From contig CAIYLG010000014.1 of the NCBI GenBank assembly GCA_903927025.1, positions 1 to 64,000 of the forward strand: a stretch of 64,000 nt of DNA, in the 5' to 3' direction. Under the pieces are notes generated by a model. That model was not told the origin of the DNA, searched no databases, and saw nothing but the letters and a program-made list of their open reading frames with translations. The translations under genes and the position numbers were made by a program. Shown here in pieces: positions 1-6,985 of this stretch (its first letter is position 1; each line of letters opens with the position of its first letter). Source of the stretch: an uncultured Armatimonadota bacterium (lineage in GTDB: Bacteria > Armatimonadota > Fimbriimonadia > Fimbriimonadales > Fimbriimonadaceae).

Positions 1-311
1 AACAGCCTCGTCTGCCCAGAAACGGCTTAAATTGACACCTTAAAGCAATTATGCGGACGCGAATAGAGCCGATCCGCGACTTCCTATCTACTTACTTGCG
101 TGCGACCATAACAAACTCCCCCCTTTTTCCGAGACCTGCTATGCAGAAAAGTGCAGCCTGCAACGGTAGTAGCGGAGATAGTAGGTGTAAAGGTACGACG
201 CCTGACATGCCTTATTGGCCGGCAGGCGGCAGACTTCCGCCCAACTGCTACAACAAATCTCCGTGGTGCAAGCTGTGGTGAAAGCGATTCTTTGCGGATG
301 AGGTATCGAGC
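1..311. other. No confident gene; possible Cys-rich ORF tail
   Basis: No recognised gene is seen here. A 76-codon plus-strand ORF at 51-281 ends in a Cys/Trp-containing tail (NCYNKSPWCKLW) and stops 30 bases before the next gene. It could be the remnant of a secreted-toxin tip like the one further downstream, but it has a stop just upstream in frame, no clear ribosome site and no recognisable domain, so it is not called as a gene. Confidence 0.3.
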
Positions 312-761
312 GTGGCATCTACTAGTAAGAAATTAAGGTTCACAGTTCTGGGTTCAGTCCTCGGGTTACTTGTTCTTGGGTTCTGCATGGGAGTTCACGC
401 CTATATTCAGCAGCGAGAGGTGATGCATATGAAGCAGATCCCTTTTAATGCCAAGCTATGGCAGAATGCCTTTTTGACGAACCTTTCCGCTCCCAATGAC
501 AGGGCGGCGATGAGCCAATCCGTTGCAAAATTCTGGCCGCCTAGGTCTCTGCTTCAGAACGTGCTGACCACCCTTCGGGCACCGGACGGAGTTGTAGCTG
601 GAGAGGAGCTAGGCGCGGAGTACCTCCATGCGCCCAGCAAAGCTGAAATGGCCTTGCTGTACCATTTCGCCACACCCTGGGATGGCAGCGTCAGCTCGGT
701 CGCGTTCTTTTTTGATGCGAGCGGCAAGCTCATCCGGGCACAGGAAACATTTCTGTATTGA
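312..761 (+). CDS. Small membrane-anchored protein of unknown function
   Basis: This is a 149-residue protein with a GTG start. Residues 9-31 form one hydrophobic segment (VLGSVLGLLVLGFCMGVHAY) after a short basic N-terminus, so it is either membrane anchored or secreted, with a soluble C-terminal domain of about 115 residues. No family is recognised. It lies just upstream of an RHS remnant among other small orphan genes. A periplasmic immunity protein is one possibility, but nothing in the sequence proves it. The GTG start puts the charged end directly before the hydrophobic segment. Confidence 0.5.
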   Translation: MASTSKKLRFTVLGSVLGLLVLGFCMGVHAYIQQREVMHMKQIPFNAKLWQNAFLTNLSAPNDRAAMSQSVAKFWPPRSLLQNVLTTLRAPDGVVAGEELGAEYLHAPSKAEMALLYHFATPWDGSVSSVAFFFDASGKLIRAQETFLY

Positions 762-829: not shown

Positions 830-958
830 GTCAGGTATCTGAGGCAGGCACTTACGAGGTGGCAAACGCTCGACCCGTTGTGGCCCGGAGAGGCGGCTTT
901 CTTGTACGCAAATGCGTCGCCGACGACGCTTGTAGATTCTAATGGAACGCAGCTATAG
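830..958 (+). pseudogene. RHS/YD-repeat core fragment, C-terminal end only
   Basis: Reading from 830 in the frame of the ORF that begins at 1010 gives VRYLRQALTRWQTLDPLWP, then GEAAF, then LYANASPTTLVDSNG, and a TAG stop at 956-958. This is the hallmark end of the RHS-associated core: an RYY-like motif, RW..xDPLWP, then LYAN.P...VD..G. Stops in this frame at 827-829 and 812-814 mean that no RHS body precedes it, so it is a stub left by deletion or recombination. In intact RHS proteins this motif marks the join between the conserved cage and a variable toxic tip. The downstream ORF keeps the same frame. Confidence 0.75.
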
Positions 959-1009
959 GCTCCGCCAGGGGGTGGCGGGCCGCATCGTGGCGTTCGGTTT
1001 TATCAGTGC

Positions 1010-1453
1010 ATGGGATGGTATCTGTCTCACTTCAAGGGGAGCTCACGGTCACAGGCATGTGAGTATTGCAAATCCTTTACCGGCTCATCAATCAACTGCG
1101 ATAGTCTCACTGCAACGTGCCCAGGGTCAACCAACGGTGGGCCCTATGCGCCTTCGCAACCCGTACTAGGCGGCCTAAGTCCGATTACTTGGACGTCATG
1201 GGGCCCTGCGACGGGATCTGGCAGGCGCGATTGCTTTGATAGATGCATAGAGTTCGCCAAGGATGTTGGGCAGTGGCCAAACATTGCGAAAATATTTTGT
1301 AAAGATCTCTGCAATGCTGCCCTTTCGGGAGGTTGCGATAAGCTTGAGCAATTCTGCATGCGTCAAATGGAAAAGCGGAAACGGGAGATCTGCGAACTAG
1401 CCTGGGGAACCGGCGGATGCCCAGGAAAAATTGGGTCTGGGATGCGTGATTAG
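1010..1453 (+). CDS. Cys-rich ORF, probable former RHS toxin tip
   Basis: This is a 147-residue ORF with about a dozen cysteines, several in pairs (CEYC, CFDRC, CKDLC). It is in frame with the RHS core remnant upstream and is separated from it only by the TAG at 956-958 and a Gly/Pro-rich linker (APPGGGG). In RHS proteins the variable C-terminal toxin follows the DPLWP...VDxxG motif directly, so by position this is the toxin tip of a broken RHS protein. No toxin family is recognised. Its stop overlaps the GTG of the next gene by one base. Whether it is still expressed from ATG 1010 is unknown. Confidence 0.5.
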   Translation: MGWYLSHFKGSSRSQACEYCKSFTGSSINCDSLTATCPGSTNGGPYAPSQPVLGGLSPITWTSWGPATGSGRRDCFDRCIEFAKDVGQWPNIAKIFCKDLCNAALSGGCDKLEQFCMRQMEKRKREICELAWGTGGCPGKIGSGMRD

Positions 1454-1983
1454 TGGACGAATCTAAGCCTTACCTAATTACAAGTCAGAGTTCGTCGGCT
1501 CGATGCACGGCCGCAATGCTCTTATCGGAAGAAGGTACACCGGAGGCAGTTGATCAACTTACGTCGGCGGCCAGGGTCGAAAGGGATCTGTGGTCTCTGT
1601 CATTCATCCTGTTCTGCATCGATGATGTGGGTTGTTCTGGCAACGCCGAGATTTTCAGTGACCTCGTGACGGCGATGGATGACCCTCAGAGACTTTCGGC
1701 TCTGCTGCTCGTTGTCCATGAACGGTCAATTCCCATTCATCCACAGTTGCTTGAATCGTTGCTCGGTCACCCGCAATGGTATATCCGGCTGCAAGCTTGC
1801 CAGTGCCTGATTCAGCAGAAAGCAACGGTTGACTTAGCCTGCGCGTTGAGTGACCTTAGAAAGGAACTTCAGACGCAATCCCTTGAAGCTTCAAACCGCC
1901 CGCCTTCCGTTTCACAAGGCTCAGAAGATTTCCTTGACGCAGCTGCTTTGAACCTGTTGCTTGATCGCCTGAGCAATGTCTAA
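1453..1983 (+). CDS. Helical-repeat-like protein, candidate immunity gene
   Basis: This is a 176-residue soluble protein with a GTG start that overlaps the preceding stop by one base (TAGTG), which implies translational coupling. It is rich in Leu and Ala and predicted helical. Segments such as SARCTAAMLLSEEGTPEA and LESLLGHPQWYIRLQACQCL resemble HEAT-type helical pairs. It has no signal peptide. Its place directly after a probable RHS toxin tip is the classic position of a cytoplasmic immunity protein. The immunity role is inferred from position only. Confidence 0.55.
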   Translation: MDESKPYLITSQSSSARCTAAMLLSEEGTPEAVDQLTSAARVERDLWSLSFILFCIDDVGCSGNAEIFSDLVTAMDDPQRLSALLLVVHERSIPIHPQLLESLLGHPQWYIRLQACQCLIQQKATVDLACALSDLRKELQTQSLEASNRPPSVSQGSEDFLDAAALNLLLDRLSNV

Positions 1984-2066: not shown

Positions 2067-2579
2067 GTGGCTGCCAAGTTTGAATTGCGGGTTGAGTGGA
2101 GACTGAGAAAGGCGTTTGAGCCTTTGCATCCCGAGACAGTCTCGCGTGCAATTGAAGAGCAGATTGCATTCATGGAGGCGAACAACCTCAAATTTGAGCA
2201 GCTGACATTCAACCCACATAATGTTCTCTGCGAGGAATACGAGCATCGAGTCCGCATGAGGGAGTATCTAGCCTCCGGTCAGTCTGCATACAGCCTTGCG
2301 GGTGAGCTTCTCGTCACCGATATCGCTCTTGGCATTTTGACCGCCAAAGTCGCTTGTGAGCTTCTGCCTTACGCATTGCTGTTTCGAGATGAGCATCGGT
2401 CAGGTCTCGGAATTGGTGTCTCTGCGGCATGGTTGGATGTTCAGCGCTTTTGTGATGAATTGAAGTTGGTGCTGTGTCCCTCCCAAAGATCCGCCGTTCG
2501 CGCGTATGTCCGGTTTAACCACTTGCTTGGGGACGAGGAGAAGGCATGGGTGAGGATATGGAACAAGCTTGAAATGTGA
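2067..2579 (+). CDS. Unknown soluble protein, possible second immunity-type gene
   Basis: This is a 170-residue protein with a GTG start and no signal peptide or membrane segment. It is predicted mostly helical, and no family is recognised. It follows the candidate immunity gene by 83 bases on the same strand and precedes a small membrane protein. Extra immunity-like genes often accumulate behind RHS or other polymorphic toxin loci, which makes that role possible but unproven. Several minus-strand ORFs overlap it and look like shadows. Confidence 0.5.
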   Translation: MAAKFELRVEWRLRKAFEPLHPETVSRAIEEQIAFMEANNLKFEQLTFNPHNVLCEEYEHRVRMREYLASGQSAYSLAGELLVTDIALGILTAKVACELLPYALLFRDEHRSGLGIGVSAAWLDVQRFCDELKLVLCPSQRSAVRAYVRFNHLLGDEEKAWVRIWNKLEM

Positions 2580-2634: not shown

Positions 2635-3045
2635 TTGGAACGGATGAATCTCGGATCAAAAAGCAACCCATTTGACCGGCGGAAAATGTGCACAGCCTTA
2701 TCCGCGGGCGACGGCGCCTTAGCCTTGGCTTTTATGGCATGCCAGTCGATCGCGGATCAAAGGGTCAGCGCTATGCAGGTGGTGGTGAGCGACTTCTTTT
2801 GGATGGCCGTTCTATGGGCTTGCATGTCGAAGTTCGCAGTTCCGAGATGGGTGGTCGGTGGTGCGGGGTTCTATTTAACGTTGGTCGACGTGGTCATTGG
2901 TGTGATGCGAGTGAGTTCTTTTTTGCATCATGGTAGGCCATCGGCGGCGCTGGTCAATGCCATTTTTCTGCTGGGCTGCGTTGTAAACGTCGTATTCTTT
3001 ATGCTGTGGCTGCGCAGACAGCCGCCTGCCATCACAAATCCATGA
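2635..3045 (+). CDS. Small multi-pass membrane protein of unknown function
   Basis: This is a protein of up to 136 residues with three to four hydrophobic segments, for example ALALAFMACQSIA, FFWMAVLWACM, VVGGAGFYLTLVDVVIGVM and AIFLLGCVVNVVFFMLWL. The C-terminus is basic (RRQPPA), suggesting a cytoplasmic end. The longest reading begins with TTG at 2635; ATG at 2644 is an equally good start. Its stop overlaps the next ATG (ATGA), so the two are probably cotranslated. No homologue is recognised. Confidence 0.5.
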   Translation: MERMNLGSKSNPFDRRKMCTALSAGDGALALAFMACQSIADQRVSAMQVVVSDFFWMAVLWACMSKFAVPRWVVGGAGFYLTLVDVVIGVMRVSSFLHHGRPSAALVNAIFLLGCVVNVVFFMLWLRRQPPAITNP

Positions 3046-3457: not shown

Positions 3458-3952
3458 GGGGCCGCGATGCAGCCGCGGACTTTTTGCTTCAACTTCTCCC
3501 AAACCACGGGTAGGCGCTTCGCGCCAACCGCGTGGCTAGTTTACGAAACCTCGCTGAGGTTTTTCGGAAGCTTGACTGTCCGGTGTTGACGTTTAAACCC
3601 TATTACTGGCAGTTCATGGAATCCAAAAGCCTTGGCCCCTACGGATGGGGCCGCTTTGCGGGCCCTTGGACTTTTTGCTTCAACTTCTTCCAAACCACGG
3701 GTAGGCGCTTCGCGCCAACCGCGTGGCTAGTTTACGAAACCTCGCTGAGGTTTTTTGGAGGCTTGACTGTCCGGTGTTGACGTCTAAACCCTATTACTGG
3801 CAGTTCATGGAATCCAAAATGCCTTGGCCCCTACGGATGGGGCCGCGATGCAGCCGCGGACTTTTTGCTTCAACTTCTCCCAAACCACGGGTAGGCGCTT
3901 CGCGCCAACCGCGTGGCTAGTTTACGAAACCTCGCTGAGGTTTTTCGGAGGC
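3458..3952. repeat. 190-bp tandem repeat, 2.6 copies, with hairpins
   Basis: Units begin at 3458, 3647 and 3839 (the last is partial) and are nearly identical apart from a few substitutions and small indels. Each unit holds a large imperfect hairpin (first copy 3504-3535, CCACG arm pairing with CGTGG, inner stem GGCGC/GCGCC) and the terminator-like hairpin AAACCTCGCTGAGGTTT followed by more T (3546, 3737 and 3927). Short ORFs within it are repeat shadows. The flanks 3306-3457 and 3953-4034 contain nothing recognisable. The array sits between the accessory small-gene cluster and birA. Confidence 0.85.
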
Positions 3953-6369: not shown

Positions 6370-6985
6370 TCCGGTTGATGGCGTGCGATCCATGCGGGTT
6401 GTCGATTCCGAGTTCCCGGAGAAACAACGCCTTGGGCGTTGGGCGTGCGTGGCGGCGCCTGGTACCAGGGTGGCCGCGGGAGCGGCGACCCTTCGCCTCG
6501 CAGAAACCACCCCGTTGGGGTGATTTGGGTTGATGTCGGGCGATCCCGATGGGACGTCGATTCCGGGTTTCCGGAGAAACAACGCCTTGGGCGTTGGGCG
6601 CGCATGGCGGCGGCTGGTACCAGGGTGGCCGCGGGAGCGGCGACCCTTCGCTTCGCAGAAACCACCCCGTTGGGGTGATTTGGGTTGATGTCGGGCGATC
6701 CCGATGGGTTGTCGATTCCGGGTTCCCGGAGAAACAACGCCTTTGGCGTTAGGCGTGCGTGGCGGCGCCTGGTACCAGGGTGGCCGCGGGAGCGGCCACC
6801 CTTCGTTTCGCAGAAACCACCCCGTTGGGGTGATTTGGGTTGATGTCGGGCGATCCCGATGGGTTGTCGATTCCGAGTTCCCGGAGAAACAACGCCGTTG
6901 GCGTTGGGCGTGCGTGGCGGCGCCTGGTACCAGGGTGGCCGCGGGAGCGGCGACCCTTCGCTTCGCACCACCTCGTTGAGGTGAA
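6370..6985. repeat. 155-bp tandem repeat, about four copies, stem-loop rich
   Basis: The anchor GAAACAACGCC recurs at 6421, 6576, 6731 and 6886, exactly 155 bases apart; the first copy has a degenerate left part and the last is cut at about 6985. Each unit has short palindromes with three-base loops: AACGCC/GGCGTT (loop TTG, TTG, TTT, GTT in order) and CACCCC/GGGGTG, which in the last copy is CACCTC/GAGGTG, changed on both sides. Since 155 is not a multiple of three, ORFs appear in all frames but are artefacts. The stretch 6158-6369 holds more small hairpins (for example ACCAGGG/CCCTGGT near 6292) and no gene. Confidence 0.9.

Follow-up and report, generated by a model that had tools for sequence, protein, structure and literature searches.

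Introduction

Orphan rhs-CT/rhsI and cdiA-CT/cdiI modules have been described by Poole et al. in 2011 (PMC3150448), and some of the orphan tips and immunity proteins proved functional in tests, while one orphan RHS module carried an in-frame stop in its retained core and orphan CDI modules had been struck by insertion sequence (IS) elements. HEAT repeats are among the listed types of immunity protein (PMC3482391), where they are given together with Tox-REase-7.

Here, we analyzed a window of 64,000 nucleotides that forms the start of contig C14 in the 5.25-Mb genome (66 contigs) of an uncultured Armatimonadota bacterium. The segment from 830 to 1983 is, with little doubt on our part, a displaced (orphan) RHS tip/immunity cassette with predicted toxin and immunity roles, because the end of an RHS core is followed by a tip that is fused to cores elsewhere and by an overlapping, cytoplasmic-looking partner (Table 1). 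The resemblance to the described orphans (PMC3150448) is extensive, comprising displaced 3' fragments, a conserved junction motif, a variable tip and an adjacent immunity gene, as well as tandem arrays, IS insertions and an in-frame stop in one retained core. The junction motif differs, being DPLWP...VDPSG-like here but PxxxxDPxGL in those orphans, as do the phylum (Armatimonadota, family Fimbriimonadaceae) and the tips, which here are mostly Cys-rich. The HEAT-repeat protein adjoining the tip as predicted immunity protein is shared with the listed case (PMC3482391), but its tip is an unnamed Cys-rich one and, unlike in that case, Clp_N or pentapeptide partners replace HEAT in some relatives. 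Compared with the TIGR03696 Rhs_assc_core proteins, the window holds the end of the same core domain, but only the last 40 of its 76 positions and with a TAG before the tip. The spare-cassette mechanism is thus already known, and what is new is the tip/partner family together with the arrays, for which we found no report in this phylum.

Table 1. Features at the start of the window
Feature	Position	Strand	Basis
Repeat end forming the start of contig C14, most likely an insertion-sequence end	1..141	.	Contig-start identity, terminal motif
Probable C-terminal remnant of a preceding Cys-rich tip (SAACNGSSGDSRCKGTTPDMPYWPAGGRLPPNCYNKSPWCKLW), truncated by the repeat	142..281	+	Composition and position
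Small protein with a hydrophobic N-terminal stretch; candidate immunity gene for the preceding tip	312..761	+	Position only
RHS core C-terminal end (RYLRQALTRWQTLDPLWP...LVDSNG), junction side of the core	830..955	+	TIGR03696 and sister cores
In-frame TAG between core and tip	956..958	+	Translation; most sister modules read through
Cys-rich tip read in the core frame; its C-terminal half holds eight family cysteines	959..1453	+	Alignments and homologues
HEAT-repeat protein, predicted immunity protein	1453..1983	+	PF13646, PF02985, AF2, Foldseek, family context
170-aa protein; possibly a further immunity gene or unrelated	2067..2579	+	ORF listing
Membrane-like protein of 136 aa; may be an immunity gene left behind	2635..3045	+	Inference

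Results and Discussion

Translation of positions 830 to 1453 in frame 1 gives VRYLRQALTRWQTLDPLWPGEAAFLYANASPTTLVDSNGTQL, the TAG at 956 to 958 and then 164 codons up to the TAG at 1451 to 1453, in agreement with the first-pass annotation, which had read the end of an RHS core, a stop and the continuation of the same frame into a Cys-rich ORF. That annotation would have fallen without an RHS profile match to the translation of 830 to 958. Such a match is present: the core piece of 42 amino acids aligns to positions 36 to 75 of the 76 in TIGR03696 with an E value of 6e-4 and 20.2 bits, which is below the cut-off of 32.5 bits because the core is truncated and half of the domain is missing. A Pfam profile search of the same piece gave no match. 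Its best relatives are found among the other cores of this genome (up to 62 to 66% amino acid identity; best tblastn match among the same-genome loci 62%, E value of 8e-15, G000:C48 and C39), and these cores themselves pass the TIGR03696 cut-off. At the DNA level, positions 833 to 886 are 89% identical to G000:C48. The readable core begins at about position 830, upstream of which homology to the sister copies is lost, and just inside it there is an apparent in-frame loss of 6 nt relative to these copies. The body of the toxin gene is absent, as had been proposed: the frame extends only 14 residues upstream of the DP motif before it closes, and positions 312 to 829 are occupied by another gene and a spacer. 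A reassigned TAG is not favored, since stop codons end this tip and other modules normally.

The tip had been given as 147 residues long, a length that is correct when counted from the ATG at 1010, the start used for residue numbering here, but the frame opens directly behind the TAG. As a single-sequence query, the tip translation matched its homologues with an E value of 7.6e-7, and a profile built from four tips found its best locus outside the seed with an E value of 3.5e-11. This profile finds members in 14 of the 291 genomes of the phylum, and weaker matches extend the family. The cysteines at residues 97, 101, 109, 116, 128 and 137 are invariant or nearly so, and those at 75 and 79 are present in most members. 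In 9 of 16 related loci, an RHS core and the tip are joined in one reading frame, the tip either standing behind the core (L092, L094, L105 and L106) or ending RHS proteins with long open frames (L095, L096, L097, L101 and L107). Membership of the tip ORF in an unrelated intact gene family, which would have spoken against the earlier reading, was not observed. In L093, core and tip are split over two frames, which makes it another damaged copy.

No close relative of the window tip was found, the nearest homologue being approximately 27% identical. The first-pass annotation recognized no toxin family in the tip, and this holds for the Pfam, NCBIfam, PADLOC and PDB sequence sets searched; likewise, no member of the tip family had a convincing match in Pfam or NCBIfam. 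Weak conotoxin-like and beta-KTx matches of the tip were taken as chance resemblance of Cys-rich sequence, and the first weak tip matches, L037 and L038 (E value of approximately 0.006), were dropped since they lie across other long open frames. A single-sequence tip search of the named genomes and a plasmid search gave no match, and an alignment built from 16 tips diverged too far to be of use for scanning. The structure model of the tip is all-helical and poor (mean pLDDT of 60), and a fold search with it returned no match. Only the N-terminal motif ACxxCKSxTGS..CD of the window tip recurs in the tip at L133:2914-3354, whose genome is labelled Acidimicrobiales, a hint that the tips themselves may be assembled from exchangeable submodules.

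With a TAG ahead of the tip and no body, this copy cannot yield an RHS protein that carries the tip, and the cell may still be protected by the predicted HEAT immunity gene. Since the copy is both displaced and interrupted, this gene is the most plausible remaining benefit. A possible reading, to which we give somewhat less than even weight, is that the HEAT gene and what lies downstream form the functional unit, an immunity island, and that core and tip are dead DNA free of selection. The stop, the mere 126 bp of core and the codon usage of the tip frame, which is not gene-like, fit this reading, and in Escherichia coli an orphan CDI module produces its immunity protein but not its toxin (PMC3150448). 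The Cys-rich composition could, however, be the cause of the untypical codon usage, and the 164 codons from 959 to 1450 have stayed open (P of approximately 0.00025 by mononucleotide shuffling) with all eight family cysteines kept. An immunity island is moreover compatible with a displaced toxin/immunity cassette rather than opposed to it. The decay of the tip that the first-pass annotation had considered is plausible in view of the TAG and the short core, although the tip frame and its cysteines are intact.

The same annotation had allowed for an assembly error at the TAG, and this has to be judged against the nature of the contig start, which it had missed. Bases 2 to 141 are 99 to 100% identical to the starts of contigs C30 and C35, and the terminal motif CTTTTTCCGAGACCTGCTA at 123 to 141 is also found at the start of contig C11 and as an inverted pair, 147 bp apart, on C45 (C45:52630-52795), where it looks like a small nonautonomous element. 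The shared contig starts and the inverted pair make it most likely that C14 begins in a collapsed insertion-sequence end. The assembler thus met repeats here, a single stop interrupts 208 codons of core and tip, and sister and homologous modules read from core into tip without a stop, all of which would agree with a miscalled base in an ordinary orphan module. The stop lies 815 bp inside the contig, however, away from the collapsed repeat, and an orphan module with a stop has been described before (PMC3150448). We regard a miscall as unlikely, and as the core is truncated as well, the displacement of the module does not depend on the TAG.

The first-pass annotation had also overlooked the HEAT-repeat gene, whose GTG start overlaps the TAG of the tip by one base (TAGTG, 1451 to 1455). 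Its product matches PF13646 (HEAT_2; E value of 1.3e-5) and PF02985 (E value of 1.7e-4), each narrowly missing the gathering score. AlphaFold2 models it as an all-helical solenoid (pLDDT of 79), for which Foldseek returned a designed HEAT-like alphaRep with a probability of 1.00 and an E value of 1.3e-3. The position directly 3' of the tip, as expected of an immunity gene, is seen both here and elsewhere in the tip family, and the HEAT-repeat alpha solenoid beside a polymorphic tip is the arrangement that defines Imm-HEAT. An ORF stands directly behind the tip in all 16 related loci, with gaps of -26 to +41 nt and one of 146 nt. The partner was defined as the longest ORF with a start no more than 160 nt away, and one such ORF, with 81 amino acids, is doubtful. 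Of the 16 partners, five are HEAT proteins, two Clp_N and two pentapeptide proteins, and the rest are without a family match. Including the window, HEAT partners follow 6 of 17 tips of this family versus none of 52 other tips (Fisher P of 1e-4), related loci not being statistically independent in these partner comparisons. By a crude hydropathy rule for export or membrane insertion, a signal peptide or transmembrane-like segment is present in none of the 17 partners of the tip family versus 35 of the 52 partners of other tips (P of 4e-7).

From gene order, coupling and the lack of export signals, we infer that the HEAT-repeat protein is the immunity protein of the tip and that it would bind the tip and shield the producer. 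The tip, itself probably an antibacterial toxin, would then be neutralized in the cytoplasm and therefore act there. That the tip is instead an inert disulfide-stapled or metal-binding cap, or an adhesion module of RHS surface proteins, is quite improbable, since its lack of a toxin profile or catalytic motif and its Cys-rich, all-helical nature are outweighed by its regular pairing, kept even in displaced modules, with an adjacent partner that differs by tip lineage (HEAT, Clp_N or pentapeptide) and never carries an export signal.

Cores of this type occur in 61 of the 85 genomes of the bacterial family, and the named relatives that carry it are mostly Fimbriimonadaceae and other Armatimonadota. 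Twenty regions were fetched, many of them with tandem modules, each consisting of a core fragment of 75 to 130 amino acids, a mostly Cys-rich tip of 115 to 230 amino acids and a small gene overlapping it or directly 3'. L072 holds five modules within 6.4 kb, and some loci carry long genes (1,370 amino acids in L085). Across 65 within-locus module pairs from 16 loci, aligned at the end of DPLWP, identity fell from 0.82 over the final 60 bp ahead of this point to 0.51 over the following 30 bp and 0.25 beyond 60 bp. For the window copy and G000:C48, the corresponding values are 0.89 over the last 54 bp of the core and 0.37 beyond. The drop right after DPLWP is the signature expected of tip exchange. 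The sister tandem modules and the end of core homology at DPLWP support the earlier proposal of a displaced tip in a genome with a reservoir of alternative tips. This assembly showed no full-length RHS gene with the core subtype of the cassette, its longest open frame with a DPLWP-type core being 363 amino acids. On C48 (L011:2942-3469 and the frame upstream), a core of this subtype is out of frame with its RHS body, apparently another broken copy in this genome.

In the mechanism that we propose, the 3' end of an RHS core, a variable tip and its immunity gene would stand without the long RHS body as a spare cassette. Homologous recombination in the core would transfer the spare tip, along with the gene that protects against it, to an RHS gene of full length, an exchange suggested because sister cores are near-identical up to DPLWP and the tips unrelated beyond. 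The loaded tip would be delivered into neighboring bacteria and act in their cytoplasm.

The other Cys-rich tips of these arrays are diverse. Among loci L072 to L091, whose tips are mostly Cys-rich, some show HExxH-like or phospholipase A2-like motifs by eye. Two-thirds of the partner genes at these loci look exported or membrane bound, suggesting envelope targets. Whether the window tip belongs to a new toxin family is, in our view, evenly balanced; such a family would comprise all-helical, eight-cysteine tips acting in the cytoplasm, with interchangeable HEAT, Clp_N-like or pentapeptide immunity, within large exchangeable Armatimonadota arrays in which most other Cys-rich tips would be envelope acting with exported immunity. 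In a literature search that drew mostly on papers available without subscription, we found no report of RHS or polymorphic-toxin arrays in Armatimonadota and no paper on RHS with Fimbriimonas. The arrays constitute a large untapped set of tips, and the presence or absence of export signals in the partners could sort unknown tips by their compartment of action, making their targets testable.

The products of the neighboring genes at 312 to 761 (Pfam and NCBIfam) and 2067 to 2579 (above the cut-off) gave no family match. Among the fetched loci, no homologue was found for the remnant at 142 to 281 or for the genes at 312 to 761, 2067 to 2579 and 2635 to 3045, the only strong matches of these three genes being the window copies. 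Further into the window, positions 3458 to 3952 hold a tandem array that contains short palindromes and repeats a 191-bp unit in 2.6 copies; parts of this array recur on about 10 other contigs. A second array, of a 155-bp unit in 3.8 copies, occupies positions 6373 to 6967 and is open in several frames, and the repetitive ORFs listed there are therefore probably spurious.
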